This document shows positions 14,570 through 31,478 of a DNA stretch of 34,999 bases, piece after piece. Source of the DNA: Terriglobia bacterium (lineage in GTDB: Bacteria > Acidobacteriota > Terriglobia > UBA7540). Position numbers and translations under genes: made by a program. The stretch covers positions 1 through 34,999 of the forward strand of contig JAIQGA010000054.1 in the NCBI GenBank assembly GCA_020072925.1, in the 5' to 3' direction. How positions within the stretch are numbered: the stretch's first letter is position 1; each line of letters opens with the position of its first letter. The notes under the pieces are model-generated. The model worked only from the letters and a program-made list of their open reading frames with translations. It ran no database searches and was not told where the DNA came from.

Positions 14570-14581
14570 CTTGTCGCGGCG

Positions 14582-15892: not shown

Positions 15893-15893
15893 C

Positions 15894-17324
15894 TCAGTTG
15901 CCTCCAACCCGTACATCTAAGAGGTTCAGGCCATTGATGTGGCAGGAATTGCAGAAGTTCATATCGTCTTTTTGGTTCTTTACCAACATACCCTGCTTGG
16001 TTCCGGCGTGAGGCTGATGACAGCTCAAACAGTTCATCGCAATCGGGGTCTTGGTTTTGGGGTTCATCACGTCCGAAACCGGGTGGGCTTTCGTCGGGTG
16101 CCCCAGGCCATATTGCAGGGGCAGGATGGGCACGTTGCGGAAGTAGGCCTCTGGTAGCTTTACTTCCCCGTTGAAGATGGTAACCATTTGTGTGCCGCTC
16201 AGCTTCTCGGGCCTGGCGTCGGGGCCGTGACACTCCAGGCATAGTGAATTGGCGTTGTTGGCTCGCAAGAGATGAGTGTTTGCTCCCCCGTGCGGTTCGT
16301 GGCAGGCGGCGCATCCCCATTCGAAGGCGGGCTTGTGCGCGTGAGCCTCCTTACCCTGTTCGGCCTGGTCGGAATGACAGTTCAGGCAGGCCGCGACCGG
16401 GTCCGGTTGCAGTAACCCGGGCGTTTTCCCCCCGTGCGGGTTGTGGCAGTCAGTGCAATCACCTTGCGCGCCCGGGTGCTGCACTTTTGCCGTCTCAATC
16501 TTCTTCGCCTCGTCCTCGTGACACATCACGCACTGCGACTTGGCGTTCGCCTGCGTCAGTACGACTTTTCCATCCTTTGCCGGCGCATGACATACGTCGC
16601 AGGTCTTGTCCGCAAAGGGCGGGTGGAGAAACTTCTGCATGAGCATCGGTGCCGCCGACTGATGCGGATCGTGGCAAGCGAGACAATCGGCTTTAGCGAT
16701 GGGCTGATTTTGGTGCGCCTTGAGGAGGGCTTCGTCCTTCAGGTCGTGACAGTCGAGGCACAGTGCGGGGGCGTCCTTGGTCAAGTGGTAGGCGAATTCG
16801 CGTTTTGTGGGGTCACCTGTCTTATGCGGGACGTGGCACGTCTCGCAACCCATATCGAGTGCGGGATGCCGACTGCCTCCTTTGGGAACGTCGAGGCCTT
16901 CGTTGTGGCAGGACAGGCAGAGGTTCTCCTGCTTTGTTGCCCCCGAAGTCGGCTTCAATAGCTGGTCCTTGTTTGCCGATTTGTGTGGATCATGGCATTC
17001 GAGGCATTGGCGGGCGGCCGGGCTGTGGACCTTCCCTTTGATATCGGAGGCTTTCTTATCGGCGTGACAACTGAGGCAGAGGCTTTGAGGTGTGGCGGCG
17101 GTCAGTTTCACTCGGGTAATGTCCCTGGTCACCCGAACCTCGTGGCAACTCAGGCATCCACTCGCCATCGCTGAGTGAACCGACTTGCCTTTCGCTTCGT
17201 CCGCATGGCACTCCAGGCACGTGGCCCCGTCGGTCTTTCCATTCAACGGAACGGCGTGCTTGGCGGCACGTGCGCCCGAGACCGTCAAGCCTATCAATAG
17301 CGAGAAGATCAGGGCCCTTTTCAT
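15894..17324 (-). CDS. Secreted 16-heme c-type cytochrome
   Basis: 476 residues with a signal peptide (LIFSLLIGLTVSGARA) and sixteen CXXCH motifs spread over residues 35-460, many followed by DPH, NPH or EPH in the doubled-CXXCH style. Repeats such as CLECH...VHS...GCLSCH suggest internal duplication, and the N-terminal third parallels the 6-heme protein encoded just upstream. It is predicted to be a periplasmic or outer-membrane-associated electron conduit. Its ATG overlaps the TGA of the preceding gene (ATGA), so the two cytochromes are translationally coupled. Confidence 0.93.
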   Translation of the reverse strand: MKRALIFSLLIGLTVSGARAAKHAVPLNGKTDGATCLECHADEAKGKSVHSAMASGCLSCHEVRVTRDITRVKLTAATPQSLCLSCHADKKASDIKGKVHSPAARQCLECHDPHKSANKDQLLKPTSGATKQENLCLSCHNEGLDVPKGGSRHPALDMGCETCHVPHKTGDPTKREFAYHLTKDAPALCLDCHDLKDEALLKAHQNQPIAKADCLACHDPHQSAAPMLMQKFLHPPFADKTCDVCHAPAKDGKVVLTQANAKSQCVMCHEDEAKKIETAKVQHPGAQGDCTDCHNPHGGKTPGLLQPDPVAACLNCHSDQAEQGKEAHAHKPAFEWGCAACHEPHGGANTHLLRANNANSLCLECHGPDARPEKLSGTQMVTIFNGEVKLPEAYFRNVPILPLQYGLGHPTKAHPVSDVMNPKTKTPIAMNCLSCHQPHAGTKQGMLVKNQKDDMNFCNSCHINGLNLLDVRVGGN

Positions 17325-18145
17325 GCACGCCCCCCCGGAAACAGGTCCTGAAATGTCTCCACCTTCCGCTGGCTTCCGTTTGCATGCTGACGGTGGCTTT
17401 GAAAGCTGAGCCGGGGATTTCCGATTGCACCTCCACTCTCCGCCGCCTTGTGCAGGAGATGCTTCTCGTCGCTGGCATGGGGATCGTGGCAGGAAATGCA
17501 GCTTTGGGCCGCGTCAGCTTTCTTGGACGCGTTGGTGAGCGTCGCGCGGGCGGCCCGAGGCGGCATGCTGATCTGCGCATGCCCGCCGCCAACCTTTGGC
17601 GCCTGCTCAAAGGACCTGAGGTCGTACGTCCGGCCGTCCAGCAGCGATACCGTCTGGGTTTTGGCATTGACGCGCACATCTGGCCGGCCGATGCCGTGGC
17701 AACTCATGCAGAGGCTGTCAACCGAGGCGCGAGCCTGAGCTCTGAACTCCGAAGCGTGCGGGTTATGGCAAATCAAGCACTGTCCGTCGTGGTAGGGCTT
17801 GTGAATCACCAGGGCCTTCTTGACCTCATGGCACTTGGCGCACAAGTCCCCGCCCACCGCGACAAAGTTGATGGTGGTCGTGTTGTCCTCTGACGTCACC
17901 CGGTGGCAGTTCTGGCAACCCATGCCCACCGCAGAGTGAACGAACTTCCCCTCCTTCTTTGTGGGGTGACAGGTCAGACACGTTTCGGACTTGATCTCCT
18001 TCTGCTCGATGAATGGATGTTCGAGGTTGTCGTCAGCCGCAACTTTTGAGATATTGAAAGTCACAAATGCGGACAACGCAGGGAGGAAGAGGAGGCGAGC
18101 TTTCGAGGACTTGCAGGTGCGACTCGCATGTGACAGCATGTCCAT
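17321..18145 (-). CDS. Secreted hexaheme c-type cytochrome
   Basis: 274 residues from the ATG at 18145. A hydrophobic segment (LLFLPALSAFVTFNI) ending near KVAA serves as signal or anchor. Six CXXCH motifs are present (CLTCH, CQNCH, CAKCH, CLICH, CMSCH, CISCH); the spacing and the VHSA...GC..CH pattern match the start of the 16-heme protein, so the two are likely paralogues. The C-terminal 50 residues have no heme motif. It is the first gene of the cluster and probably carries electrons in the periplasm. The Shine-Dalgarno is weak. Confidence 0.9.
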   Translation of the reverse strand: MDMLSHASRTCKSSKARLLFLPALSAFVTFNISKVAADDNLEHPFIEQKEIKSETCLTCHPTKKEGKFVHSAVGMGCQNCHRVTSEDNTTTINFVAVGGDLCAKCHEVKKALVIHKPYHDGQCLICHNPHASEFRAQARASVDSLCMSCHGIGRPDVRVNAKTQTVSLLDGRTYDLRSFEQAPKVGGGHAQISMPPRAARATLTNASKKADAAQSCISCHDPHASDEKHLLHKAAESGGAIGNPRLSFQSHRQHANGSQRKVETFQDLFPGGRA

Positions 18146-18668
18146 ACTCAACTCAATCGCAAGCGTAGCCTGAGCGTCACAGCAACTAAGTCGCCACTGG
18201 CATGCATTTTTTGTCTCTGCCTGCGGCTACAAGTTGTTGAGGATGTTTATATTACGGACACGGTTTTCAGGGCTCGGTCACGGCCTATTGCAGGACTCCA
18301 CAATCTGCGCTGATTTCCTCAGCGGACATCCTGTACACATGACACCTGTCAACGTCGTGGATTATTACACTCTGCAGCTCTCGCGCTCGATAGGATCGCC
18401 AAGTTCTGATGACTCGGACATCGTGTCATGAGACGAGCTCTCTGAGGTTCTGGTCTCAGGCGGTGAACGGAACGGTTTTCAAATTCCCCTGGCTTGCACC
18501 TCAGAGCAGGAACAGCCCGGCTATAGAGGGCCTGCCGCAAGGGGGGTGATCGGGTCAGGGCGGATCGCTCGCCTGTCAGACCTAAGCCTTGGCATTGACA
18601 CTCGGTGACTTCGGGGGTTGATTCATTTCGCCGGACTTTTCCTTTTCCTCAATTGACAGAGGCGCAGG
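18146..18668. other. Leader and upstream region of the cytochrome cluster
   Basis: About 520 bases without a gene. On the minus strand a TAATAT-like -10 lies near 18249-18254, without a good -35 box. GTAGCC/GGCTAC at 18165-18170 and 18225-18230 could pair and form a leader structure. I see no recognised riboswitch. The small frames here lack ribosome-binding sites. Confidence 0.4.
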
Positions 18669-18697
18669 TTGACCGTGCCCGACAGGTCGCTTAAAAT
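18669..18697 (+). promoter_or_regulatory. Original host promoter of the tRNA-Sec gene, now orphaned
   Basis: TTGACC at 18669-18674, a 17-bp spacer, then TAAAAT at 18692-18697, seven bases before the tRNA-Sec 5' copy. This is the promoter expected for selC before integration. It now drives only a truncated tRNA reading into the mobile element. Confidence 0.75.
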
Positions 18698-18745
18698 CAG
18701 TACGGAAGTGCATGCGGGCTGGTGTTCGCCCAGGACTTCAAATCC
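18686..18745 (+). repeat. Left attachment repeat with orphan 5' half of tRNA-Sec
   Basis: 60 bp repeated directly at 29018-29077 with three mismatches, all in the first 17 bases. Positions 18703-18745 are a perfect 43-bp copy. From GGAAG at 18704 it covers acceptor 5' strand, D-arm, anticodon loop and part of the anticodon 3' stem of tRNA-Sec, then diverges (GACATT). It marks the left end of the integrated element. The truncated tRNA cannot function. Confidence 0.93.
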
Positions 18746-19016
18746 GACATTTACTTTTGCACGGTTTAGTACGATGGTGGAAGTGATTGCAAATTAATGG
18801 TCCGTACACTTCTATACTAAGCCATCCAAACGACCACTCACTACAGTTTTCGCTACATCGCGCACTTTTGGAAAAGCGTGTTGCAGCCATTCTACGGTTC
18901 ATTGGGCGTCTGACAGTCTGAGAAGCGCTCCCAGGGCGGTCCCGCGCGCGCGAAGGCCATTCTACGACGACGCGGGATGTATCCTTAACGGCTTTCTGTC
19001 TGCAGGACCTTCTGGG
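18746..19016. other. Left-end non-coding stretch of the element
   Basis: About 270 bases between the left attachment repeat and the stop codon of the 335-residue gene. No gene, clear hairpin or repeat was seen. It may hold integrase arm-binding sites, but no repeated motif supports this. Confidence 0.4.
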
Positions 19017-20024
19017 TCATTTCGACTGGGTCGCTGATTCGCCGGCAACACCCTGCGGTGTACCCGCAGCACCATTGTCAGGGGTTTTGGACAGCGCGTA
19101 AAACACTCGCTGCGCCGTTGTCCTGGCGACGCCCGTATCCAGCGATATCTCCCTCCAGGAGCGGCCTGCCGCCTTCAGTTGCGCTATCCTTTGCGGGTCT
19201 GGGATGACTCGCGGCGGGTCCGGCTGCGAGTTGCGGAGAGCATTGATGCGGCCCCTTTCTCGAACGTAACACCTTGCACAGCACATGTTCCCGCCATATC
19301 CAGCATCTTTTTTCCCGCAGCAGAAACAACCCCACTTGGCGAAATAGCGCGAACAGAGGTCACGGTCCTCAGAGGTCTGGTGCCTCCTGATCTCGTTTGC
19401 CCTTGCCCGTTGGCGGAACCAGCTGCCGAAGCCTAGATCCTCGGGGTCTGCGAGAACCTCCGCGACGCGTTGGTCCACGAGTTCCTTGATACGGTCGTCG
19501 GGTGTTTGAGCCGGTCGAATGCTCTGCGTCGTTTCGTGCGCTATTTCTTTGCGGATTCCTCGGGCGGGCTTCAATGTCGGAGAGCGTTTGACTGGCAATT
19601 TCAGGGCTAACTCAGCAAGCTCTTTGAGTACGAGATGTTGAATGCGGCTTTCAGCCATTTCCAAAATCACGGTGACCATCTCGGTGGTAAGTAGCTTCTG
19701 TCGGCGAATGTGCCCATCTCGAGCCGTCTGAGTCGTGGCCGCGCGCTCCGCTTCCCGCTGGTCAACTATTAACTCAGCTAGCTCGAAGAATTTCTTCCTG
19801 GCTGCCAAGCGACATTCGGAAGCGTGGCCCAGCTGTTGCAGGGCAAACTCCCCAAGCCTATCGTCGCTCGCCGTCGCGAGGTAGTCGATTAAGCCGCTTG
19901 CATCAGTTGTCGGGCAATTGAAATAACGCAGGGTGATGGATTGGACGGGAGACCTGGAGTCTCCAAGCGATTGAGGATTGTAAGTTTCAAGGGAGTTTTC
20001 TTCTGGTATCTTGGGGTCAGCCAT
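19017..20024 (-). CDS. Element protein with Cys-rich zinc-binding motif and C-terminal HTH, function unknown
   Basis: 335 residues, ATG with AAGGAG upstream. The middle is helical and charged. Around residues 235-260 a Cys cluster (CFCCG...MCCARC) looks like a zinc ribbon. Residues 275-310 (RIAQLKAAGRSWREISLDTG, then VARTTAQRVF) form a helix-turn-helix like that at the end of serine recombinases, but no catalytic recombinase domain is present. It is probably a DNA-binding protein. It has its own strong promoter and a leader of about 70 bases, unlike the genes upstream. It is the leftmost gene of the element, where satellites often carry accessory or control genes. The family is not recognised. 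Confidence 0.75.
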   Translation of the reverse strand: MADPKIPEENSLETYNPQSLGDSRSPVQSITLRYFNCPTTDASGLIDYLATASDDRLGEFALQQLGHASECRLAARKKFFELAELIVDQREAERAATTQTARDGHIRRQKLLTTEMVTVILEMAESRIQHLVLKELAELALKLPVKRSPTLKPARGIRKEIAHETTQSIRPAQTPDDRIKELVDQRVAEVLADPEDLGFGSWFRQRARANEIRRHQTSEDRDLCSRYFAKWGCFCCGKKDAGYGGNMCCARCYVRERGRINALRNSQPDPPRVIPDPQRIAQLKAAGRSWREISLDTGVARTTAQRVFYALSKTPDNGAAGTPQGVAGESATQSK

Positions 20025-20098
20025 ATTCGCGCTCCTTCGTAGCGTGGGTGTGGTCAGGGCGCGGTGGGAGCTTTCACCTCCTGCCGTGCCCGCTTTTC

Positions 20099-20127
20099 TT
20101 TATATGCCCTGTCTCGGTGTTTGTCAA
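20099..20127 (-). promoter_or_regulatory. Sigma70-type promoter of the 335-residue gene
   Basis: On the minus strand TTGACA at 20127-20122, a 17-bp spacer, then TATAAA at 20104-20099. It is near consensus and would give a leader of about 70 bases before the ATG at 20024. Confidence 0.75.
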
Positions 20128-20324
20128 TCCGATTCAGAAACGGTACGCGCCAGCGTGTGAGAGGCTGCAAGAGCGCGTTTAGAAAGGCTCAGGATGATTT
20201 GCGAGCAGTGGGCCTATGCGATCAGTCGCAGCGTTCAGAAAGGGGGCTTTCTCCGGGGCCTGACAAGTTGTTGATTCCACACAGGGCAGAAATGGCAAAG
20301 AGGGCAGTTCAGAAACGGAACGAT
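20128..20324. other. Non-coding stretch within the element
   Basis: Between the promoter of the 335-residue gene and the end of the small membrane-protein gene. No gene, terminator or repeat was recognised. Confidence 0.4.
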
Positions 20325-20594
20325 TTATAAACGAGTCTGGGAGTTGGCAGCGCTGCGCGCCGCCTCTGGCGTGGGATGGCGTGAATATCTTGGACTGGAA
20401 ATCTCCCCCTTGAACGCGACAAACCTCATCAAGCTGTAGTCTTTGGTTGCGGTCAAAAGTACTCCGCTCAACAGAGGGTCAAGATTGGTCAGCCCAAGTT
20501 CGCGTGCCCACGGTAAGCAAAGCAGGGCGCTCAGAGCCGTTATCTTCGCCGCAGCCGATCCAATCGCTGCGAAAAGCCTCATGCTGAACCGCAT
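20325..20594 (-). CDS. Small membrane or secreted protein of the element, unknown
   Basis: 89 residues. The ATG is preceded by GAGAGGA at good spacing. Residues 7-30 (LFAAIGSAAAKITALSALLC) are hydrophobic after a basic start, a signal anchor or signal peptide; a second mildly hydrophobic stretch lies at 38-50. The tail is polar and basic. No family was recognised. It lies 70 bp behind another single-span membrane protein, so the two could work together at the membrane. Confidence 0.55.
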   Translation of the reverse strand: MRFSMRLFAAIGSAAAKITALSALLCLPWARELGLTNLDPLLSGVLLTATKDYSLMRFVAFKGEISSPRYSRHPTPEAARSAANSQTRL

Positions 20595-20666
20595 GGCTGT
20601 CCTCTCTTTTGTGAGTCCTTAACCCAGTAGAGTTTGCCTGGGGAAGACCATCTCCAGTTTTCGCGC

Positions 20667-21242
20667 TCACAAGTCGCTTACGAACCTCCAGGCAAAATAC
20701 GCTCCCACCGCGACCCCGCCGATAATGAGGAGATCAGCAATCGTATTCAGAACCTTTGTCCAATCGGTTGCCGGGGTCTGCACGTTTCCTCCACCGCCAA
20801 GAGCATTCGCGATGAGGTTGGCAGCCGAAGGTCCGGTTCCCTGAAAGGTGTTCGATATATCCGCAAGCGTGCTTCCCGTGGACTGACCCTGAACGGTGGC
20901 AACCTGTACGGCCATCTGCGAATTTGCTTTGTTGATCTGACTCGCCAAAAACTGAGGGTCAGTAACTTGTCCTGTGTTGGGGTCAGTCATGCCTCGCGTC
21001 AAATCGGCTGCGTTCGCGGCCTGCAATTCCTTGAGCTGCTGAGGAGAAATCGTTCCATGGTTGATGGCGTAGGTTAAATTGGGGTCTCCGGAGATCAATG
21101 CCCAAGCGGTGTCGCCAAGCCCAGACAAGAAATCCCACCAGCCGTAGTTTGGAAGAAAATCTCCTACACCGCGCACGCCGCGCGACGGCAAAACCTCCAC
21201 AGACAGTGGCCGTCTACCAGGAAAGGGCCGTAGTTTTTGCAT
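20667..21242 (-). CDS. Element protein with C-terminal transmembrane helix, unknown
   Basis: 191 residues, ATG with AAGGAG eight bases upstream. A basic N-terminus (PFPGRRP) is followed by a Trp-rich segment (NYGWWDFLSGLGDTAWALIS), an Ala/Gln/Asn-rich middle that is probably helical, a Gly-rich patch (ALGGGGNV) and a single transmembrane helix at about 165-188 (LLIIGGVAVGAYFAWRFV). Gly-rich low-complexity plus one C-terminal span recalls virion or spanin-like membrane proteins, but nothing specific was recognised. The neighbours are unknown element genes on the same strand. Confidence 0.65.
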   Translation of the reverse strand: MQKLRPFPGRRPLSVEVLPSRGVRGVGDFLPNYGWWDFLSGLGDTAWALISGDPNLTYAINHGTISPQQLKELQAANAADLTRGMTDPNTGQVTDPQFLASQINKANSQMAVQVATVQGQSTGSTLADISNTFQGTGPSAANLIANALGGGGNVQTPATDWTKVLNTIADLLIIGGVAVGAYFAWRFVSDL

Positions 21243-21277
21243 GGTTGCTGCTCCTTCTCTTGGCAGTATTCGGCGGC

Positions 21278-21664
21278 TTAATTGAAGACTTCCCCTGTCG
21301 CTTTGTCGATAATGAACGCCTTGACGGGCAGCTTTTTGCGGCCGGTGCCGCTCCTAACCTGGTAAGTACGGCCGGCAACGTCGAATTCCCAATATTCCTT
21401 ACCCTTGCCGAATGAGAAAAGCCCCCCGCCGCGGGTGATGAGCTTGGCTTTGCCAATCGAGCTTTGCCTGGCGTTCTTCAAACGCAAGCGCTCGCCGTCA
21501 GGGTTCAAGAGCTTCACGTCGCGGAGGTGCTCAGCAACAAACCTTCGAATCTTCGAAACCGCGTCTTCTCGAGAGTTTGCGAACACTCGTAGCTTTGCCA
21601 CGGGTTCGCGGCCCTCGCTCGGATTCTCATGGGGCCGATAGAAGTTTGCGTATACGAATGGCAT
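21278..21664 (-). CDS. Element hypothetical protein, 128 residues
   Basis: The ATG is preceded by a strong AGGAGGT site. The sequence is basic and predicted beta-rich, with aromatic strands (YWEFDVAGRTYQV) and a closing KAFIIDKATGEVF turn. No family was recognised. It is the first of a run of well-initiated minus-strand genes leading into the membrane proteins, with only 35 bp before the next gene, so an operon is likely. Confidence 0.7.
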   Translation of the reverse strand: MPFVYANFYRPHENPSEGREPVAKLRVFANSREDAVSKIRRFVAEHLRDVKLLNPDGERLRLKNARQSSIGKAKLITRGGGLFSFGKGKEYWEFDVAGRTYQVRSGTGRKKLPVKAFIIDKATGEVFN

Positions 21665-21848
21665 GTACTACCTCCTAACCGGAGATTCAGCCCAAAATGT
21701 TCTAGGCCCCCGCTCCGCAGTAATCAAGGAGCAGCAAGCGTATGAAGTTCCCAAGAGCACGCCCGGTCGGGCTTTTGCCTGATCGTCGTGCTCTTTGGGA
21801 GATGAGTCGCCTGGCTTCGCGCCGTGGCCAGCGAGAAGGCTGACTCCC

Positions 21849-22217
21849 TTAGTCGGTTTCGGCTGGCTCTGGCTCTGGCTCTTCTTCCTCGGGCAGAAGT
21901 TCTTGCATTTCCTTGAGCTTCGCGATGACCTCTTCCCTCGACAATTCAGCATCAAGCGCTTCATCGACGAGGCTAGCAATGTCATCCAAAGTTTCTTGAG
22001 AGTCTTGAAGTTCCTGTTCGACTTTTGACCTTCGAGTGGGCATGGTTCGGCTCCTTGAGGGTGGATTTGCGATTTGGATGTGCCGATGAGCGGCATACTC
22101 GTCAACTGTTTCATCCTCGATCTGGCGCGCGAGCTCTGGGTCATTAAGAACATCCTCGGCAAACTGGACGGCCTTTTCTTTTCGGCTTTTGACCTGCTCG
22201 CGCGTGAATTTCTTCAT
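21849..22217 (-). CDS. Small charged protein with an internal in-frame start
   Basis: 122 residues from the ATG at 22217. The first 52 residues are helical and acidic/basic (RKEKAVQFAEDVLNDPELA), and the later part is a predicted coiled coil ending in a Glu/Pro-rich tail. The ATG at 22217 has no clear Shine-Dalgarno. An in-frame ATG at 22043 has AAGGAG seven bases upstream and would give a 64-residue C-terminal product. It could be one protein with an internal start or two genes fused by loss of a stop. I recall similar small proteins from mobile elements but cannot name a function. Confidence 0.65.
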   Translation of the reverse strand: MKKFTREQVKSRKEKAVQFAEDVLNDPELARQIEDETVDEYAAHRHIQIANPPSRSRTMPTRRSKVEQELQDSQETLDDIASLVDEALDAELSREEVIAKLKEMQELLPEEEEPEPEPAETD

Positions 22218-22320
22218 CGCGTGGGCAGCTTAAGCCAGCCCGAGGTATGTGCGTCAAAGGAAATAAACCCCTGTGTACGGGGAAAAAACCTGAGCGGCCA
22301 AATGCTGGAATCTGCGTAAG

Positions 22321-22878
22321 TTAGGCCTTTGGAAAATGATGGCGATTGGACTGTTCGGAGATTTTTTTCGGTCGCACCCCGAGACCGCGTCTGGCGTGAA
22401 GTGCCTTTCTCAAATTTTCGGATTGGTGCTTTTTTTCTTCCATAGTCAAAGTGACGAACCCTGGAATGCACGCTGGGCAAACACGGTGCTCAAAAATGTA
22501 TTCCCAATAGTCACTTGGGTCGGACTGCCTCATCTTCTCGGGTTTCATTTCCTCTGAAAATATCGAGAGGGCCTTGTCGATTCGAGGTTCTTTGGGACGG
22601 CCCCCACGGTGCAAGGAGCGCCGAAGGATCTTCGCAACCTGCGGACGTGCTCCGCCGGCGATTCTTCTTTTGATTTTCTCCGATTCTCGGTTGACCAGGT
22701 GTACAAGCCCAAGCCAGGCTTTGCGCCTGACTCCGATTAAATCGCGTCTGGTGGCAGCTTGGAGTTTTTGCGAAGAGGGGCTATATAGAAGGAGACGCAA
22801 TGACCGCCTTCCGATCGGACCCAGCTCGGCGAAAAGGCATTGAGCGGCGAGAAACAAGCCCTCAGGGTCACAACGCAA
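22321..22878 (-). CDS. Element hypothetical protein with a C-terminal Cys pair, start uncertain
   Basis: An open frame of up to 185 residues. The only upstream start is a TTG at 22878 without a good ribosome-binding site, and the first internal Met is more than 100 residues in, so the start or even the frame may be wrong near the 5' end. The overlapping frame 22737-22949 has an ATG (22934) and could be joined by a frameshift. The middle is strongly basic (SEKIKRRIAGGARPQVAKIL); the end has CPACIPGF and a basic tail. It is possibly a nucleic-acid-binding protein; no family was recognised. Confidence 0.45.
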   Translation of the reverse strand: MRCDPEGLFLAAQCLFAELGPIGRRSLRLLLYSPSSQKLQAATRRDLIGVRRKAWLGLVHLVNRESEKIKRRIAGGARPQVAKILRRSLHRGGRPKEPRIDKALSIFSEEMKPEKMRQSDPSDYWEYIFEHRVCPACIPGFVTLTMEEKKHQSENLRKALHARRGLGVRPKKISEQSNRHHFPKA

Positions 22879-23046
22879 GTAATTAGTTGCCCGAACATCT
22901 CACCGGAACATCCAAATTGTTCTGCGCTCATTTCGCGTTTCCAAAACAAATGTGCGAAAACCTAGAAAAATGCGAAAACTCCTGCATCTTCAGGGTTGCA
23001 AAACCTTGAAAAAGACAGCACGCCGAACATTGAAAAACGACGCAGC

Positions 23047-23754
23047 TCAGCATCCACGGCTCGCTTTTACGAAAAGGAATGTGATCTTGTCGGCATCTCT
23101 GGTTAGTGTGTCCAAGATTTTCTGGGACACGATCTCCCGCATCGCAGGTTCTTCAAAAGGTTCGTGCTGAGGGACCTCGGAGATTAGGGCTTCCCTCACT
23201 CTTTGCATTTCCTCTGGGGGCAGGTATCCACTCACCAAAGAAATTCCGTACGCGAGCCATCGCGACCGAAACTGGGCAACCTGCCTTTCTGCTCGCTTCC
23301 CAGCCTTCTGCTTGGCGTTCTCAGCTTTCAAGGTTTCGCGTTGAAGCTTCAGTTTTTCTTTTTCGAGCAATATCGCTTCGCGCTGCGAGTCAGCCTCATC
23401 GCGTCTGGCGTGTGCTTCAGCCTCTTGTTCGTCGTTCAATTTGGCAATTTCCCGCTGCTGCGCCATGATCTGCCTCTGCAGCTGAAGGCGTTTGAGTTCT
23501 TCCTCCTTCTCGCGTAAACCAGAAGAGTCAAGTCGCTCGCCTCGATCGGCTACACGCCGTGTGCTTTCGGGCGCAATCCGAACATGACCGCCGGGTGTGC
23601 GGAAATAGTCGAGCTCGCCGGCGGTAACCATCCTTCGTACCGTGGGAGGCGACACTCCAAGCAAAGCGGCAGCCTGGCTGACAGAGAGAGAAGCGCCCGG
23701 AGGTTTATCCGGTGAGGTTTTTCTTGAAACGGGCCGTTTCCTCTTTTTTTTCAC
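23047..23754 (-). CDS. Excisionase/MerR-like HTH protein with long coiled coil
   Basis: 235 residues from a GTG at 23754 with GGGAG eight bases upstream. After a Lys/Arg-rich start, residues 22-65 form a MerR/excisionase-type winged HTH (SVSQAAALLGVSPPTVRRMV and YFRTPGGHVRI). Residues 80-155 are a charged coiled coil rich in Glu, Lys and Gln. The C-terminal 80 residues are globular and unrecognised. The gene starts 30 bp from the iteron dyad, so it may bind there as an initiator, a partition-like factor or a repressor. This role is inferred from position only. Confidence 0.8.
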   Translation of the reverse strand: MKKKRKRPVSRKTSPDKPPGASLSVSQAAALLGVSPPTVRRMVTAGELDYFRTPGGHVRIAPESTRRVADRGERLDSSGLREKEEELKRLQLQRQIMAQQREIAKLNDEQEAEAHARRDEADSQREAILLEKEKLKLQRETLKAENAKQKAGKRAERQVAQFRSRWLAYGISLVSGYLPPEEMQRVREALISEVPQHEPFEEPAMREIVSQKILDTLTRDADKITFLFVKASRGC

Positions 23755-23783
23755 CTTAGCGGCTCCCCCATCTCTTTTTTTGC

Positions 23784-24019
23784 GGGGACACCGGGGACAC
23801 TGGGGACACTATCTCCCAATGCGTTGACTTCGCTGCGGTTGTAGCTTTTGAGGTTTGTCCCCGGTCGCTGTTTTGCACCGGGGACAAGCGGGGACAAAAC
23901 CCTATTTTGTCCCCGGTGTCCCCGGTGCCATTTCCCGCAGTGGGGACAAGTCCTGAAACGCGAAGTGCACGGCCTTTCAATGGGTTATGAATATTGTCCC
24001 CGCTGTCCCCGCTGTCCCC
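23784..24019. repeat. Twelve-heptamer symmetric dyad, candidate replication origin
   Basis: GGGGACA starts at 23784, 23793, 23802, 23880, 23890 and 23942; its complement TGTCCCC starts at 23856, 23908, 23917, 23995, 24004 and 24013. Tandem units are mostly 9 bp apart, about one helical turn. The order is three forward, one reverse, two forward, two reverse, one forward, three reverse, symmetric about 23901-23902. It lies between the primase-helicase stop and the HTH/coiled-coil gene and has the features of an iteron-type origin. Confidence 0.85.
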
Positions 24020-24044
24020 ACCTGAAAATGTTATGCCGTGCATT

Positions 24045-26531
24045 TCAAGTCTCCAAAATGGCTGATTTAATTGCATAGACGCGGGTCTTTTCGACTTCCG
24101 GCAGACGGACTTGTAGAGTCAGACGTCCGGCGTCGCAGACTAAGAACCCGCGATCTGCTAGCGTGTGGGCTACCATCTGATAGTCGAAGCCATTACAGAC
24201 TTCGCCCTTGAATACTTCGGACAACACCAAGTACTCTGTCTCGCCCTGAGGGTTCTCACGTTTGAATCCAGCCCGATTTACCACCCGCTCTGGAATTTCC
24301 TGGCCAATGCCTGTGCGACGCGGGAGAACCGATTGGAATCGACTCGCACCGTGCGCCTCAATGAAGGCCCGGACTTGCCGTACTCCAGCTTCACTGTCGG
24401 CCAAACCAATTGTTCCGCGAGCTTCAATCCATTCGACGAGACAACACGATGCGGCATTCTTCGCTTCGCCTCGTTGCCAACCTGTGAGTCCGATGTCGGT
24501 CGCCAATTCGCCGGCTGCTGCTGCCAGTGCGAACCGGCCGGCCGCTCGCCTCACTTCCCCCGAGGAAGATGGCGGCAAATTGCCAGCCAAGAACTCGGTG
24601 CGGAAATTGCCAATTCGATCCTCAACCCCTGGTCGGTTGCCAGTCACGTACTCAAGGAATCGTCGGATCGGCTTCCCGTAAAACATCTTACTGGCATCGC
24701 GCAAATGGCGTGAAAGCGCTTCACTGCTTTCAAACCCATGTAAATCTTCGAAAATACCCATCTGCGCTCCAGCATCAGCAGAAATATTAACTAATCGGAT
24801 ATCGGCGCCCGCACGTGTATGTTTCCCGCCTGATTCAGAGTGTTGGCTAAGCGTAATCTCTCCCGAAGAAATAAACAGTGTGGTCCAGCTGAGACGTTGC
24901 CGCAGGCCCAGTGTCTTTGTCATTCTTTGCTTGCCCTGACCATTCGCGAGCAAGTACAAGCTCTCAGTCGCCTCACGGGAGTCGAGTTGAGAAATCTCAT
25001 CCAAGCAGCCAAGGGAATCATTGTGCAGGTCCCCAAAGGCTTCTAAGCCATTGACGGTGGTCCGCCAAGACTCCACAAAGCCATTGCGACCGCCCCCGCC
25101 CCACACCGAGCCGGCAACCAGCAATGCCGTGGTCTTCCCAGTCGAACTTGTACCGTGGAGGTGAAAACCTCCGGAATCATCTTTTGAGAGTCGAAGTAAT
25201 GGTGCTGCAAAGGCGCATGAGACGAGAAAGACCAAACGCGAATTGCCAGAGCAGAGTTGACCCACATTTTTCGTCCACTCATCTAGAGACCCGCACTCAT
25301 TGAAAAAGTGCTGTGTGTCCAGCGGCGACTGAAAAACGAGTCCTTGGTCGTTGGGGCTTAGTCCAATCGTGGAATCAGGAAACACGAACACGCGATCATG
25401 CCAGCCTAACCTGGAAACGCAACGATACTCGTCGCCTGCCCCTGCCAAGAGCGCCATCGGCATTGCCCAGAAATGCTCCCGCTCACCGTCGGACCATTTC
25501 AATAAGCGGCCCCATCCTTCTCCCTGGTCATTCCTGGTTGCGGCAACGATCTCCAGCGGCGAGCATATACGGATTGGTTCGTTGTCCGCATTCGGGTCCG
25601 TGTAGTACACCCCATCATCGACAACGCGAAACCGTGTCGCATCGGCGTGTGGTATGGCCTTGCGGGATTCACTGCATTCGTTCGGCAAAAACCGCTTGCT
25701 CCATTCCGCCAGTCGGCGAGTGTCCAGACTTGGGGCCTGAGAAATGAGTTCCTCAATCTTCTCGCGTGTCCCACCCATCATTTCCCAGTCGCATACATCG
25801 CCCTTCGGGGGAAGGTTTGGCAGTTCAAGTATTCGAACTGAACCAGCCACCGGAAGGAGATTTTGAGCTATCGAAAGCGCATGGCGCATTCCTGCTTCGT
25901 CATTGTCCGGCAAGATCACGCTCTCGCGGGTTTTGAAGTAAACGGAAAATTCGGATAGCCACTTACCCGCTCCTTCGGAATTGCACGTCGCCGCATATCC
26001 CCAGCTCTTCAGTAGCTCAGCCTTCTTTTCGCCCTCGGAAATCAAGACCCGCTGAGCTTTCATCAGGTCGGGAAGGTGATAGGGAACGCGGTGCGCGTCG
26101 CCCAAACCTTTAACCCACTTCCCCTGATCCCCCGGATGTTCTATGACGAAACTTTTTCCAGAGGATGATTCGATGCGCAGTACCCGGTACACTGGCCGGC
26201 CATTCCCGTTTTCATATACAAAGGTTCCGGTGACTTCGCGCTTTGGTTTCGTAGGCAACGGGCGACCGACTATTCTGAATACTGAATCGAGCGCGTCTCG
26301 AAACCGAAGGTTGGATAACTCCATTTCCAGTCCAATCAAACCCCCTCCGCGTGCGCATTTTGAATGGCAGTACCATCTGCCCGTTGCAGGTTCAACCGAG
26401 AAAGAATCGCGCTGCCCTTGATGTATCGGGCAAGGTCCGCGGAGTTCCTTGCCCATGTGCTTGAGCCTCGGGACTCGGTTCTTGAAATAGCGCGTGATCT
26501 CACCACCCGAGAATTCCACCGCTCTACTCAA
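24045..26531 (-). CDS. Primase-helicase with CHC2 zinc finger, Toprim and DUF927-like ATPase
   Basis: 828 residues from a TTG at 26531, chosen because GGAGG lies five bases upstream and the TTG overlaps the TGA of the preceding gene; the longer frame to 26687 has no such support. Residues 34-60 hold a CHC2-type zinc finger (CPIH...WYCHSKC) as in DnaG-like primases. A Toprim domain follows (LISEGEKKAELL, ILPDNDEAG). The C-terminal half is a DUF927/superfamily 3-like ATPase with Walker A GTSSTGKTT and Walker B-like LGCLDEIS. It should prime and unwind DNA at the element origin, and the putative iteron dyad lies 25 bp beyond its stop codon. All key motifs are intact. Confidence 0.92.
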   Translation of the reverse strand: MSRAVEFSGGEITRYFKNRVPRLKHMGKELRGPCPIHQGQRDSFSVEPATGRWYCHSKCARGGGLIGLEMELSNLRFRDALDSVFRIVGRPLPTKPKREVTGTFVYENGNGRPVYRVLRIESSSGKSFVIEHPGDQGKWVKGLGDAHRVPYHLPDLMKAQRVLISEGEKKAELLKSWGYAATCNSEGAGKWLSEFSVYFKTRESVILPDNDEAGMRHALSIAQNLLPVAGSVRILELPNLPPKGDVCDWEMMGGTREKIEELISQAPSLDTRRLAEWSKRFLPNECSESRKAIPHADATRFRVVDDGVYYTDPNADNEPIRICSPLEIVAATRNDQGEGWGRLLKWSDGEREHFWAMPMALLAGAGDEYRCVSRLGWHDRVFVFPDSTIGLSPNDQGLVFQSPLDTQHFFNECGSLDEWTKNVGQLCSGNSRLVFLVSCAFAAPLLRLSKDDSGGFHLHGTSSTGKTTALLVAGSVWGGGGRNGFVESWRTTVNGLEAFGDLHNDSLGCLDEISQLDSREATESLYLLANGQGKQRMTKTLGLRQRLSWTTLFISSGEITLSQHSESGGKHTRAGADIRLVNISADAGAQMGIFEDLHGFESSEALSRHLRDASKMFYGKPIRRFLEYVTGNRPGVEDRIGNFRTEFLAGNLPPSSSGEVRRAAGRFALAAAAGELATDIGLTGWQRGEAKNAASCCLVEWIEARGTIGLADSEAGVRQVRAFIEAHGASRFQSVLPRRTGIGQEIPERVVNRAGFKRENPQGETEYLVLSEVFKGEVCNGFDYQMVAHTLADRGFLVCDAGRLTLQVRLPEVEKTRVYAIKSAILET

Positions 26532-26869
26532 TTTCGCCTCCGCAAGTAGAGCATCGCGAAAATATAGTGATGTTGCAACGCGCGCACATAATAGGCGAGG
26601 AATGAAGGCACCACATCGGCAAGCCTGGCGACTGTGAAGCGGCGCCCTCGGAATTCGAGAATCGCGAGGGCAATCATTCTGTGCCACTCGTCGCAGAAAT
26701 CTTCCGGCTTAAGATCCCCGAGGGCTTCCGGTGTGCCAAAAGCAATGGCAGCACCAAGGAGCAACCTTTCGGTTTCGAGAGCGGTTACGCCCTCATCATG
26801 GGGTCGCGAAACTTGTAACAAGCGAGGATGTCTGATAGGATGGTTTTCCATACCGAATCCCGAAAGCAT
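26528..26869 (-). CDS. Stand-alone DnaB N-terminal-domain-like protein
   Basis: 113 residues from the ATG at 26869, or 107 from the ATG at 26851. The segment PHDEGVTALETERLLLGAAI resembles the PHxEEAE...LLGA opening of replicative helicase DnaB, and the rest is helical (DFCDEWHRMIALAILEF). No ATPase domain follows; the ATPase is in the next gene, whose start overlaps this stop codon. It may act as a primase- or helicase-loading subunit. An 8-bp hairpin (GGCGACGC/GCGTCGCC, 26875-26896) sits just ahead of the first ATG and could limit translation. Confidence 0.72.
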   Translation of the reverse strand: MLSGFGMENHPIRHPRLLQVSRPHDEGVTALETERLLLGAAIAFGTPEALGDLKPEDFCDEWHRMIALAILEFRGRRFTVARLADVVPSFLAYYVRALQHHYIFAMLYLRRRN

Positions 26870-26930
26870 TTCCAGGCGACGCTGGCCGGCGTCGCCCTTT
26901 CGCTTTTTGCCGACGCGATGCTCGCGGGAG

Positions 26931-27128
26931 CTATTTGCGCCTCTTCTTCGCGCCAGGACCGTTCATTCCTTCGCTTACCAATCTTCGAAGGGCCTCGGGA
27001 GTCACGCAGACACGCCGGCCGAGCCGTACAGGCACAAGTTTGCCCTGTGCGATCCATTTTCTGAGAGTCCACGGAGAGAGACTCACCGTAGCGGCTGCTT
27101 CAGCTATGCTCAGTGCAATCTTTTCCAT
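26931..27128 (-). CDS. Excisionase-like (Xis/AlpA-type) HTH protein
   Basis: 65 residues, ATG with AAGGAG upstream. It is almost entirely one MerR-like winged HTH: LSIAEAAATVSLSPWTLRKW, then GKLVPVRLGRRVCVTPEAL, followed by a Lys/Arg tail. Proteins of this size next to tyrosine integrases act as recombination directionality factors or as repressors. It is transcribed away from the integrase operon from a promoter that overlaps the integrase-operon promoter, so it is well placed to control that switch. Confidence 0.88.
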   Translation of the reverse strand: MEKIALSIAEAAATVSLSPWTLRKWIAQGKLVPVRLGRRVCVTPEALRRLVSEGMNGPGAKKRRK

Positions 27129-27149
27129 ATTGGGTCTCCTTCGACACTC

Positions 27150-27177
27150 ATAGTACTTGACAATCCTTTTCAGTCAA
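27150..27177 (-). promoter_or_regulatory. Promoter of the Xis-like gene (overlaps the divergent promoter)
   Basis: Minus strand TTGACT at 27177-27172, a 16-bp spacer, TACTAT at 27155-27150. It lies wholly within or against the plus-strand promoter at 27157-27185, so RNA polymerase can occupy only one at a time. Confidence 0.7.
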
Positions 27178-27185
27178 AATACAAT
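27157..27185 (+). promoter_or_regulatory. Promoter of the integrase operon, probably leaderless
   Basis: TTGACA at 27157-27162, a 17-bp spacer, TACAAT at 27180-27185. The first ATG (27192) is seven bases past the -10 box, about where transcription should begin, and no Shine-Dalgarno is present, so the first message is probably leaderless. Confidence 0.8.
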
Positions 27186-27191
27186 GTTGGT

Positions 27192-27845
27192 ATGGCTAAA
27201 CGACTAAGGCATGTGTCACGTGAATACTTCGGCGAACGAGAAGCGCATGACATCATCGAGTGGATGAACGAATTTGGAAGCACGCGCCGTGGTCGGCCTG
27301 TCCTGAGGCTCTGGGAAGCATACAACCGCTACGTGCAGTTCCTGCTTACCAATGTCCAGGAAGTCCGCGCCGTCATCGGGAAAGAGATTGGCGTGCGTCC
27401 TGAAGTTTCCCCGGTGCTTGACCGCAAGGCGGAACAGCACTTTAGGCAGCTCGACGAGAGAGAGAATCGGGAATTTCGCCGAAAGGCGGCAAAGGCCTGG
27501 GAACAATGCCACGCGACTGCCACAGAGGAGCATTTTGCTTTCGAGTTTCTTCGACGGATCACCCCTCAACACCTATTAGTCCCCAAGCCGAGACAAGCGT
27601 TGGAACGAAAGACGGCAGGTCAGGCAGCTTTTGAGCTGTATGTTCTGAGTCATCAACCTGCATTTCACAAAATCCGGCAGTGTCAAACCTGCCGAAGATT
27701 CTTCTATGCCCGTTTCAAGCACAAGAAGTTCTGCTCGGTGAAATGCCAGCAGAAGTATTACAAGCAAAGTCCAGAATGGAAGGCTTATCGGGCCGGTTGG
27801 ATGAGGACACACCGCGTTATACTGAAAACTAAGAACGTGAAATGA
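27192..27845 (+). CDS. Zinc-finger protein encoded ahead of the integrase
   Basis: 217 residues from the ATG at 27192; the open frame extends back to 26634, but that part is antisense to other genes and upstream of the promoter. The C-terminal 60 residues contain a treble-clef-like zinc motif (CQTCRRFFYARFKHKKFCSV, then KC), similar to CGNR-type fingers, followed by a basic Tyr/Lys/Arg tail. The N-terminal part is helical. It is probably a DNA-binding regulator or an accessory recombination protein. It is followed after eight bases by the integrase start, so the two are co-transcribed. Confidence 0.8.
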   Translation: MAKRLRHVSREYFGEREAHDIIEWMNEFGSTRRGRPVLRLWEAYNRYVQFLLTNVQEVRAVIGKEIGVRPEVSPVLDRKAEQHFRQLDERENREFRRKAAKAWEQCHATATEEHFAFEFLRRITPQHLLVPKPRQALERKTAGQAAFELYVLSHQPAFHKIRQCQTCRRFFYARFKHKKFCSVKCQQKYYKQSPEWKAYRAGWMRTHRVILKTKNVK

Positions 27846-27853
27846 GGTGAACC

Positions 27854-29026
27854 GTGGCAATCTACCCAAGAGGTAATTGGCTCTGGACTAACTTCTATTT
27901 TGAGAAGAAACACATTCAGGAGAATACACAGGTCCGTGTCGGCAAGAGGCCGAAAGCCAAACAGCAAAACTACAAGCGGGCTGTCGCCTACGAAGAACGT
28001 CGCAAGAATGAGTTGCGCGACCCCTCGTTGGTGAAGGTGAAACGTGAGCGCCCGCCTACTCTGCAAAGCTTCAAGGAGCGTTTCATCAAATCGGTAGAGA
28101 CACGTCTTGCTGACAAGCCCCTGACCATTGAATTCTACAAGTCTAAACTCCAAAACCTTCTGCGATTTACTCCCCTTGCCGAAACCCGACTTGACCAGAT
28201 CGACGAGGGCATGATCGAAAGCTACGTCCAGCACCGCCAGAAGGTTGTCAGGGTCGCATCGGTCAACCGCGAGCTGGCGACGCTCCGCAAGGCGCTAAGA
28301 CTGGCGCAGGATTGGAAACTTATTGACCGCGTTCCGCGAATTCGGTTGCTGCGGGGCGAGCGGGTCCGCGAGTTTGTCTTGAGTGATGCTCAGGAGCAGC
28401 TCTATCTGGACGCCGCTCCTCAGCCTTTGCATGACGTTGCCCTTCTGGGACTCGACACCGGGATGCGGCCCGGTGAAGAACTCGCCCTCAAGTGGGGCGA
28501 GGTGCACTTTGAGCCAGCCAGAGGAGCGAGGCTTGGGTACATCCACGTGAAAGACGGCAAGACTCGGAATGCGAAGCGAAACCTTAGTCTGACTCCGCGC
28601 GTGCGGAGCATGCTCGAAAGCGCAGAGGTACGAAAGACTTCGGTATGGGTCTTTACGAATGAGACAGGTGCAGGGCCTCTATCACGGTTTAGGCTGCGTG
28701 ACCAGCATGATGCGGTTCGGCAGGCACTCAACCTGCCGCAGGAATTCGTCGTCTACTGCCTGAGGCATACCTTCGGAACCCGGCTGGGTGAGTCAGGCGC
28801 CGATGCCTTTACGATTATGAAGATCATGGGCCACAGCAGCGTGACGGTTTCTCAGCGGTACGTACATCCGACGCCCGAGACCCTGGAGAGAGCTTTCGAA
28901 CGGCTCGAAGAGCGGAACCAAAGAGCAGCCGCTAAGCTCTTAGAAGAGCAGAAACGGCTGCTACCCGCTACAGTTTCTACTACAGTGGAAGACGTGGAAG
29001 TTGATACTGAACTAGAAGTCGCTTAG
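27854..29026 (+). CDS. Tyrosine recombinase (integrase) of the tRNA-Sec element
   Basis: 390 residues, GTG start with GAGGTGA upstream. A basic arm-binding N-terminus (1-65) is followed by a core-binding domain (about 70-165) and a catalytic domain (170-345). Arg205 (TGMRPGEE), Lys236, Arg304 (YCLRHTFGT), His327 (MGHSSV) and nucleophile Tyr336 (RYVHP) are present. The His of the usual HxxR box is Tyr301, a variant seen in other phage-type integrases. An acidic C-terminal tail (VEDVEVDTELEVA) is encoded by DNA that also forms the selC promoter, and the TAG stop opens the -10 box. It should integrate the element at the tRNA-Sec anticodon arm. Confidence 0.95.
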   Translation: MAIYPRGNWLWTNFYFEKKHIQENTQVRVGKRPKAKQQNYKRAVAYEERRKNELRDPSLVKVKRERPPTLQSFKERFIKSVETRLADKPLTIEFYKSKLQNLLRFTPLAETRLDQIDEGMIESYVQHRQKVVRVASVNRELATLRKALRLAQDWKLIDRVPRIRLLRGERVREFVLSDAQEQLYLDAAPQPLHDVALLGLDTGMRPGEELALKWGEVHFEPARGARLGYIHVKDGKTRNAKRNLSLTPRVRSMLESAEVRKTSVWVFTNETGAGPLSRFRLRDQHDAVRQALNLPQEFVVYCLRHTFGTRLGESGADAFTIMKIMGHSSVTVSQRYVHPTPETLERAFERLEERNQRAAAKLLEEQKRLLPATVSTTVEDVEVDTELEVA

Positions 29027-29029
29027 AAT
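29001..29029 (+). promoter_or_regulatory. selC: Element-supplied promoter for tRNA-Sec, inside the integrase gene end
   Basis: TTGATA at 29001-29006, a 17-bp spacer, TAGAAT at 29024-29029, seven bases before the tRNA. It mirrors the orphaned host promoter at 18669-18697 in spacing and in the -10 region. The integrase stop TAG (29024-29026) forms the first half of the -10 box. Confidence 0.78.
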
Positions 29030-29077
29030 GAGTGCGGAAGTGCATGCGGGCTGGTGTTCGCCCAGGACTTCAAATCC
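29018..29077 (+). repeat. Right attachment repeat within tRNA-Sec and its promoter
   Basis: Direct repeat of 18686-18745 with three mismatches; 29035-29077 is a perfect 43-bp match. The identity ends inside the 3' strand of the anticodon stem, placing the crossover in the anticodon arm or upstream of it. Confidence 0.93.
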
Positions 29078-29130
29078 TGTGGTCCCGACTTTGTCGGGAC
29101 GGTCGGTTCGATTCCGACACACTTCCGCCA
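29036..29130 (+). tRNA. selC: tRNA-Sec (anticodon UCA)
   Basis: 95 nt including an encoded CCA. The acceptor GGAAGTG pairs with CACTTCC. The anticodon stem CAGGA/TCCTG holds loop CTTCAAA with anticodon TCA at 29070-29072. A long variable arm with an 8-bp stem (GTCCCGAC/GTCGGGAC, 82-89 and 93-100 past 29000) and a 3-nt loop, and a T-arm GTCGG/CCGAC, are diagnostic of selenocysteine tRNA. Its 5' half was delivered by the mobile element and its 3' half is host DNA. It inserts Sec at UGA codons with SelB. No selenoprotein gene is visible in the window. Confidence 0.96.
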
Positions 29131-29453: not shown

Positions 29454-29948
29454 TCAACCGGGTTTGTATTCGGGGATGCGCTCTTTAGGCAGGAAAAGTG
29501 CAGTTGTAGTTGCTCCGAGCAATTTGGCAAGTGCCTTCTGAATTTCGAGCAGGTCAGCCTTCACGAATCCCTCGCTGGAGCAAGCGATCTGGCCTTCCCG
29601 ACCTATGAGGAATAGCGACGGGACGTACTTCAACTGATATTGGCGCGACACCGTATAGGGATGGTCGTCCACAAGGATGGGGAAAGTGATGCCGTGTTCC
29701 TTGGCGAAGCGCCGGCTGTCCGCGGCGTCGTTCTGCACGATTCCCCAGACCTGGGCGCCCTGCGCGCGGAATTGCTGGTAGAGGCGCTCGAGAAAAGGGA
29801 AGGTGTACTGGCACGTGGGGCAATTGACTTTGAAGAAGGCTGCAAGCACCGGGCCCTTCGCGAGTGCCTCCTGCAAGGCGAATTTCTCGCCGCTCGTGCT
29901 GAGCAGCTTGAAATGCGGTGCGGCCTTTCCGGCGGTCATCGTCGGCAT
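29454..29948 (-). CDS. Thioredoxin-fold peroxiredoxin/TlpA-like protein
   Basis: 164 residues from the ATG at 29948, which has GGAAGGAG just upstream; the longer frame to 30005 lacks a ribosome-binding site. A redoxin fold is evident: PHFKLLSTSGEKFAL, then VLAAFFKVNCPTCQYTFPFL with a CPTC active-site pair near residue 44, the VPSLFLIG cis-Pro segment and a C-terminal helix. It has no signal peptide, so it is probably a cytoplasmic thiol oxidoreductase or peroxiredoxin. CXXC rather than the single peroxidatic Cys favours a thioredoxin-like or bacterioferritin-comigratory-type role. Confidence 0.85.
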   Translation of the reverse strand: MPTMTAGKAAPHFKLLSTSGEKFALQEALAKGPVLAAFFKVNCPTCQYTFPFLERLYQQFRAQGAQVWGIVQNDAADSRRFAKEHGITFPILVDDHPYTVSRQYQLKYVPSLFLIGREGQIACSSEGFVKADLLEIQKALAKLLGATTTALFLPKERIPEYKPG

Positions 29949-30123
29949 GGTTCTCCTTCCGAATATTCCCTCAACATATCTTAGCAGAATTCCCAGCATG
30001 GCCAATCTGCCGCCACGGTGAATCGAGCGGGCAATTCTAGCGGAAGTCTTTCTGGAAAGATATTCCCGGCCTGGAGGCGGGGCGTGACTGGAGGTTCCCC
30101 GCGTTTGGCGCGGGGAGAGGAGA

Positions 30124-31359
30124 TCAATGGATGCGCTTGACTTTCTTCTGCATGTAATCCATCAACAGGTATTGCCCGAGTGTATAAGGAGTTGTAAAGT
30201 AGGCTTTGCCGCGGCAGATTTCCGTGACTTTCTGGATGAAGTTGACGAGTCCGTAGTCGGAGGCCAGCATAAAGGTATTGATCAGGATGCCGTTGCGCCG
30301 GCACCGGGCGACCTCGTGGAGCGTCTCCGATACGACCAGAGGGTCCAAGCCGAAGGCATTCTTGTAAATCCTTCCGTCTTCGAGCGTCAGCGCCGAAGGC
30401 TTGCCGTCCGTGATCATCACGATCTGGCGCATGTCTTTCTTCTGCCGCGCCAGCAGGCGTTGCGCCAAGCGCAGCCCTTCGCGCGTGTTGGTGTAATAAG
30501 GGCCGACGCGCACGCGCGCCAGCTCCGAAAGCGGCATCTCTTCCGCCGAGTCGTGAAAAAGCACCAGGTGCAGCGTGTCGCCGGGGAACTGCGTGCGGAT
30601 CAGATGCGTCAGCGCCAGCGCCACCTTTTTGGCAGGAGTAAAGCGGTCCTCGCCATAGAGGATCATGCTGTGGCTGCAGTCGAGCATCAGCACCGTGGCG
30701 CAGGAGCTCTGGTACTCACACTGGCGCACCTGGAGGTCCTGGTAGTCGAGGTCGAGCGGCACCTGGAGGCCGTTGCGGCGAATGGCGGAAAGCAGCGTAG
30801 CGTTCACGTCGAGATTCATGGTGTCGCCGAATTCGTACCGGCGGCTCGAGCCGTCGGACTCGACCCCGGTCGCCAGCTCGCACGTGTCGTGACGGCCGAA
30901 ACTGGACTTGCCCAGCGACCCGTGCAGGTCTTTCAAAGTCTTGAATCCCAGACAGTCCAGGGCCTTGTCGGTTTCCGGACCCATCTGGCCGCCCGTGCCC
31001 GGCTTGATTTGCTCGCGCTGGCCGGGGTTGGGCTGCTCGATGGTGATGTAACCCTCTTCCGCCAGGCGCTCGAGCAACTGATCGATCTTTTTGGCGAGGT
31101 CGGAATCCTTGTAGTTCTCCCAGTTCTGGAGCATCTGCTGGAGGAGTTCGTCCGGGAGCTTGCCCTGGTCGCGGAGGGCCTCCAGAAGCGCCTGGTGCAG
31201 TCGCTCCATGGTCCGCTCGGGATCCATTTCCTGAAAGTTGTAATACTGGTTGTAGAAGCCGCTGTCGAGGAGGAAATCCTGAAGAAGCTGCAGCAAGTCT
31301 TCCGCGCTCAGTTCATCGAACGGGCTGGGGACGTATTTGGAATACTTGACGTATTTCAT
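30124..31359 (-). CDS. VWA-domain protein paired with a MoxR/Mg-chelatase-like ATPase
   Basis: 411 residues. The N-terminal 110 residues are helical and acidic. From about residue 220 a von Willebrand A domain carries the metal-ion site DCSHS (227-231), [10 protein letters not shown] and later conserved Asp/Thr residues. No signal peptide. Such proteins act with AAA+ ATPases as chelatase- or chaperone-like complexes that insert cofactors or remodel proteins. The partner ATPase gene lies upstream on the same strand, separated by a heptamer-flanked spacer of about 120 bp. The substrate is unknown. Confidence 0.88.
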
Positions 31360-31363
31360 CGGA

Positions 31364-31398
31364 CCTGTCAGTTGTCCTTTGTTCGTTGTCCGTTGCAG
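31364..31398. repeat. Heptamer array, GTTGTCC type
   Basis: Units CCTGTCA, GTTGTCC, TTTGTTC, GTTGTCC and GTTGCAG in 7-bp register, in the gap between the VWA and ATPase genes. It forms an inverted pair with 31445-31472. Confidence 0.75.
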
Positions 31399-31444
31399 CC
31401 AAGGATGACAAACTCATCGAAGGTAATCAACCTGCGCCACTGAC

Positions 31445-31472
31445 CACGAACAACGGACTACGGACACCGGAC
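31445..31472. repeat. Heptamer array, NACGGAC type, inverse of the 31364 array
   Basis: Units CACGAAC, AACGGAC, TACGGAC and ACCGGAC. Read on the other strand these resemble the GTTGTCC units, so the 46-bp segment between the two arrays is flanked by inverted heptamer arrays. Confidence 0.75.
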
Positions 31473-31478
31473 CAATCT

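Follow-up and report, generated by a model that had tools for sequence, protein, structure and literature searches.

A putative integrative element bringing its own 5′ half and promoter-like sequence to an acidobacterial tRNA-Sec gene

tRNA halves as integration sites

Islands at selC and other tRNA genes classically restore the 3′ half of their target, and the host promoter stays in its place. Integration into the 5′ half has been described in both archaea and bacteria (PMC8371274, PMC6563490), and a 5′ tDNA fragment was recorded for 159 of 3919 islands in Islander (PMC4383910). A review of archaeal recombinases states that the 5′ half is seldom used in bacteria and that pTN3-like integrases use it, with the rebuilt tRNA expressed from the integrase promoter (PMC8371274). 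In a Thaumarchaeota survey, 5′ recombination is described as considerably less frequent, with reference to Zhao and Williams 2002 (PMC6563490).

The locus described here lies on a contig of a draft Terriglobia assembly (GCA_020072925.1, contig JAIQGA010000054.1; the window is the whole stretch of 34,999 nt that was analysed) and resembles several of these systems. It shares with the classical 3′-half islands a tRNA target, a tyrosine integrase, a crossover in the anticodon region and a restored gene, whereas the element in the window would replace the 5′ half together with the promoter. With the 5′-fragment islands, as far as they are covered by PMC4383910 and by the citation of Zhao and Williams 2002 in PMC6563490, it shares the tyrosine integrase, the tRNA target, the displaced 5′ fragment upstream and an intact tRNA rebuilt with the element's 5′ half. 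It differs in that one integrase clade is found here at many tRNA genes, and apparently also in that a selC promoter-like sequence occupies the last integrase codons with the stop codon inside the −10 box. The pTN3-like integrases of Thermococcales (PMC8371274, PMC5495485) also have the tRNA 5′ half as attB and sever the rebuilt tRNA from its original promoter, but their gene is split by integration, whereas in the window a whole integrase ORF of 390 aa stands beside the tRNA. Integration also couples int and tRNA transcription in the ICEKp1-type, state-dependent systems (PMC13023037); there int is driven by the tRNA promoter, whereas here element DNA would drive the tRNA. In tRNA-dependent lysogeny the host tRNA function is likewise supplied by the element (PMC10865867), but those phages carry a whole tRNA gene and leave the host gene unrebuilt, whereas the element in the window would rebuild it. 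The preliminary description of this DNA had spoken of a reversed strategy. The element is indeed a mirror image of the 3′-half islands, but the strategy is not new, as the Islander, archaeal and bacterial cases show.

The selC element and its hybrid target gene

The two copies of a 60-nt direct repeat (18686–18745 and 29018–29077) were identical at 57 of 60 positions (E = 1e-22) and shared a 43-nt core without mismatch; ungapped extension gave 103 nt at 79% identity (18643–18745 and 28975–29077). The selC part of the repeat had two matches in the whole 6.5-Mb genome, namely the two copies themselves. The right copy runs into an intact tRNA-Sec (73.6 bits), the sole intact selC in the genome, and the left copy breaks off within the 3′ strand of the anticodon stem, its last tRNA position being 42. 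The working selC would thus be composed of element-derived positions 1–42 and a host 3′ half, and since a SelB gene was found in the same genome, it very probably works. The repeat with three mismatches and 43 perfect base pairs over the tRNA-Sec 5′ half, the continuation of the right copy alone into an intact tRNA, and the spacing of 10,332 bp, which we obtained again from start to start of the copies, had all been noticed earlier and were borne out. The locus also has the hallmarks by which tDNA islands are recognised: an intact tRNA gene, a cognate fragment (here of the 5′ half) upstream in the same orientation, and between them an island within the 2–200 kb range containing a tyrosine integrase. 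A classical 3′-half selC island was ruled out, because the displaced piece consists of tRNA positions 1–42 and lies upstream.

Table 1. Features of the selC locus in the window
Feature	Position	Strand	Basis or remark
Stranded host selC promoter-like sequence, TTGACC-17-TAAAAT	18669–18697	+	−10 ends 6 nt from the displaced half; layout as in most selC promoters of the family
attL core, putative displaced host tRNA-Sec 5′ half (positions 1–42 plus one base)	18703–18745	+	43 nt identical to 29035–29077
Integrative element body (10,332 bp between equivalent repeat points)	18746–29034		Repeat comparison
Far-end element protein, function unassigned	19017–20024	−	50–53% identical homologue in the same place in the tRNA-Glu element of G003
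Excisionase-like helix-turn-helix protein, candidate directionality factor	23047–23754	−	TIGR01764 above cut-off; phrog_66
Primase-helicase, CHC2 zinc finger and DUF927, Cch-like	24045–26687	−	Domain and profile matches
Tyrosine integrase, reading towards selC, stop TAG at 29024–29026	27854–29026	+	PF00589, 2.7e-19; phrog_1, 1.6e-49
Element-borne selC promoter-like sequence, TTGATA-17-TAGAAT, sigma70-like	29001–29029	+	0 of 300 shuffles scored as high
attR core, putative element-supplied 5′ half of the working tRNA-Sec	29035–29077	+	43-nt identity to attL core
Predicted hybrid selC, intact tRNA-Sec, anticodon UCA (element 5′ half, host 3′ half)	29036–29130	+	RF01852
Host right flank: thiol-disulfide/peroxiredoxin-like, VWA, MoxR-type and Lon-N-like genes	29454–33869	−	Follow selC in most family genomes

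The integrase reads on the same strand as the tRNA and its stop codon lies 9 nt upstream of it. Besides the genes in Table 1, the element encodes several small proteins without an assigned function; PADLOC gave no clear defence cargo, and the G+C content is slightly below that of most of the flanks. The right-flank gene set lies downstream of selC in most genomes of the family whether an element is present or absent, so the right side is host chromosome and the element is on the 5′ side of selC. On the left, multihaem cytochrome-like CXXCH proteins are clustered with repeat proteins (7128–18151), possibly as an electron-transfer locus. Within the element, a 20-nt inverted repeat (23789–23808 and 23908–23927, CACCGGGGACA-type, 95% complementary, 99 nt apart) adjoins the 3′ end of the primase-helicase gene and is possibly part of a replication origin.

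With a probability of roughly 0.93, and judging from sequence comparison, an integrative element replaced the host's 5′ half and promoter at selC with its own. An element of ~10.3 kb with its own tyrosine integrase would have recombined the tRNA-Sec 5′ half on its circle (attP) with the host selC (attB), the crossover falling in or beside the anticodon loop. As such an element carries the 5′ half and not the 3′ half, the host promoter and 5′ half would be moved 10.3 kb upstream, and the working selC would combine element promoter, element 5′ half and host 3′ half. Expression of the tRNA could continue from a host-like promoter concealed at the 3′ end of the integrase gene. On excision, the 3′ half would regain the stranded promoter and 5′ half, and the element is presumably still mobile.

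A second selC element of the same layout was found in G016. Its integrase, 52% identical to that in the window, lies on the upstream side of selC; 12.27 kb further out there is another selC 5′ half (tRNA positions −12 to 44), with a full promoter of its own. The two elements have the integrase alone in common and differ in cargo. A tRNA-Pro(UGG) gene lies on the opposite strand 1 kb beyond the displaced half in G016. The distance from tRNA-Pro(UGG) to selC downstream of it is 141–250 nt in G001, G011 and G019, whose selC genes carry no element of this integrase clade; without its element, G016 would have this order too, with a wider gap. The integrase of G029 is decayed and so is its displaced selC 5′ half, as expected since this copy is stranded. 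Decayed integrase fragments were also seen beside tRNA-Pro(UGG) (L065, 5037–5582; L073, 5849–6013; L083, ~1.2–1.7 kb past the displaced half), pointing to a second hotspot of integration at this near neighbour of selC.

For the window locus no empty-site genome was found, its left flank being common to no relative compared; with a left-flank cytochrome gene as probe, homologues were found and none adjoined selC. A natural empty site was found at tRNA-Met. The left flank and tRNA-Met of G393 are separated by an element of 12.9 kb that has a displaced 5′ half, and in G410, of the same genus, 60 nt lie between this left-flank sequence and an intact tRNA-Met; the flanks match over a short stretch (137 nt at 68%, plus translated matches) and are colinear. 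For the G135 element no empty site was found within its genus. The lack of an empty site at the exact window locus would agree with an origin of the repeat without site-specific integration, in which the right selC is wholly the host's and the left half is a remnant of an unrelated duplication or rearrangement. We consider this highly improbable: the left copy comes with a full promoter of the selC type, the repeat stops in the anticodon stem like those of other members, the integrase abuts selC, G016 shows the layout independently with different cargo, and the pattern recurs at many tRNA genes.

Promoter-like sequences upstream of selC

Most selC genes in the family have a promoter with a TTGAC-type −35 box, a spacer of 17–18 nt and a TAGAAT-type −10 box ending 6 nt upstream of the tRNA. 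In the element-borne sequence of the window, the −35 box lies within int, and the −10 box begins with the three bases of the int stop codon TAG. The selC members of G006 and G024 have this overlap as well. The selC member in G029 has retained TTGACC-17-TAGTAT, and that in G016 has retained the −10 box with a weak −35 box. A TTGA-type −35 box and a TAGAAT or TAGTAT −10 box at the host's own spacing are thus found in four of five selC elements, G016 being the fifth. As claimed in the preliminary description, a host promoter and 5′ half stranded on the left, and a new 5′ half and selC promoter carried by the element, hold at the level of sequence. In clade members at tRNA-Met, Leu, Thr and other targets, mostly no tRNA-adjacent promoter was recognised, and our promoter-carrying claim is for this reason limited to selC. 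A general rule that 5′-type elements bring a tRNA-adjacent promoter was not borne out; it holds at selC but is not clearly seen at most Met, Leu and Thr targets.

Alternatively, after integration as described, selC could be expressed from transcripts that start at the integrase promoter, or at another promoter upstream, and read through into it. The short distance from the int stop to the tRNA on the same strand, the Met and Leu elements without a clear tRNA-adjacent promoter, and the reviewed case of archaeal pTN3 (PMC8371274) all agree with read-through. It is nevertheless unlikely in view of the four selC elements that keep both boxes at the host spacing, and of the −10 box kept beside a weak −35 box in G016. 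We infer that the element-borne promoter is active, and selC, a single-copy tRNA gene, would then apparently be under the control of mobile DNA through a promoter squeezed into the end of an integrase gene.

Similarity to integrase tails was also seen upstream of selC genes in other genomes. In the 68-nt stretch that precedes selC in G010, identity to the int tail of G024 is 88%, and no integrase was recognised next to this selC on the contig. In G038 the sequence before selC is in frame as an int tail and matches the tails at 23–34 of 62 positions outside the −10/core region, as against 11–26 of 62 for most other host promoters. The case is weaker for G002, G009 and the left copy in the window. 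These matches suggest that element promoters may persist after loss of the element, and this stays a suggestion since promoter constraints force part of the similarity.

The left copy in the window could accordingly be read as the scar of an earlier, similar element whose integrase tail already served as selC promoter, and not as the pristine host promoter. The 103-nt extension of the repeat points in this direction, as do the 29 of 62 positions outside the −10/core region at which the left copy equals the window's int tail and its reading in frame up to a stop at the −10 box. Part of this match is again forced by promoter constraints, however, the mean over five int tails barely exceeds that of ordinary host promoters, and no further int remnant was found upstream; we regard a scar as rather doubtful. 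Taken more broadly, an acidobacterial integrase branch dedicated to tRNA 5′ halves might drive a promoter ratchet at selC, with the promoter swapped at each integration for one lying in the last integrase codons, and this int-tail promoter kept by the host selC when the element decays without precise excision. G010 and G038, and less clearly G002, G009 and the window's left copy, are candidates for this tentative model, which we hold to be possible but short of probable. Should the relics prove to act as promoters in genomes free of elements, a conserved tRNA gene would repeatedly have had its promoter rewritten by mobile elements.

Integrase relatives and the side of integration

A single-sequence query of genome contigs gave no relatives of the window integrase, and a query with an alignment did. 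In a quick tree of 86 integrase homologues, with some long branches, the branch of the window comprised 23 integrases; a neighbouring tRNA was found for 20 of them, and in all 20 the tRNA 5′ end faced the integrase 3′ end. The same orientation was found at 49 of 49 scorable loci in a second sample of public named-genome records, partly overlapping the first and selected at ≥42% identity to the window integrase in the best segment. This cut-off is not a clean border, because two integrases of the neighbouring branch with 43–44% identity are on the 3′ side in the first sample. The targets of the clade were tRNA-Met, Leu, Sec, Lys, Thr and a few others. Among cultured acidobacteria, Granulicella rosea DSM 18704 (L257) is an example, with a partial integrase facing tRNA-Met. 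The selC-specific integrase family envisaged in the preliminary description was therefore rejected, since the relatives occupy the 5′ halves of many tRNA genes. Neither a clade given to 5′-half integration nor a selC promoter built into an integrase stop was found described in the literature searched, a search that most subscription journals lay outside.

Displaced copies beside the 5′-side elements, where found, were mostly exact 5′ halves. In a comparison with 3′-side controls, such halves ended at position 36–44 and were seen at Met, Thr, Ser, Leu and Arg tRNAs, and the displaced copies of the controls were 3′ halves starting at 29–32. The two kinds of fragment overlap in the anticodon loop, which points to a crossover there in either case. 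On the tree, 10 changes of orientation are required, compared to 24.2 with shuffled labels; orientation is thus inherited, yet has switched more than once.

A ~10.4-kb element at tRNA-Glu in G003 (L214, 9218–19677) has a 3′ half as displaced fragment (positions 32–79). Its primase-helicase is 65% identical to that in the window, the far-end protein is also conserved (Table 1) and further genes are in the same order, but the integrases are only 28% identical. Based on this comparison and on that with the G016 element, which has only the integrase in common with the element in the window, the simplest reading is that orientation would travel with the integrase, and we infer that the integrase fixes it. 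With one clade uniformly directed to the 5′ side, a neighbouring branch directed to the 3′ side and one backbone carrying both kinds of integrase, these elements are well suited to the question of what determines the orientation in which integrases use tRNA genes.

A phage collection gave only distant integrases, with ~30% identity or less among the matches listed, and no tRNA was found adjoining the integrase of one viral contig (44% identity). Outside Acidobacteriota, a clade integrase was seen at tRNA-Met in a record labelled Rhodanobacteraceae (L251, 3694–3735 and 10001–11093), with a displaced 5′ half covering tRNA-Met positions 0–41; this could reflect a transfer or a binning error. A few 5′-side loci of the second sample also had a 3′-half or nearly full-length copy, and these extra copies may belong to other elements or other tRNA genes. 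At L233 (13764–13811) and L266 (10434–10493), copies of the tRNA 3′ half lie opposite the clade-integrase side of the tRNA, so that one tRNA gene is possibly flanked by two elements.
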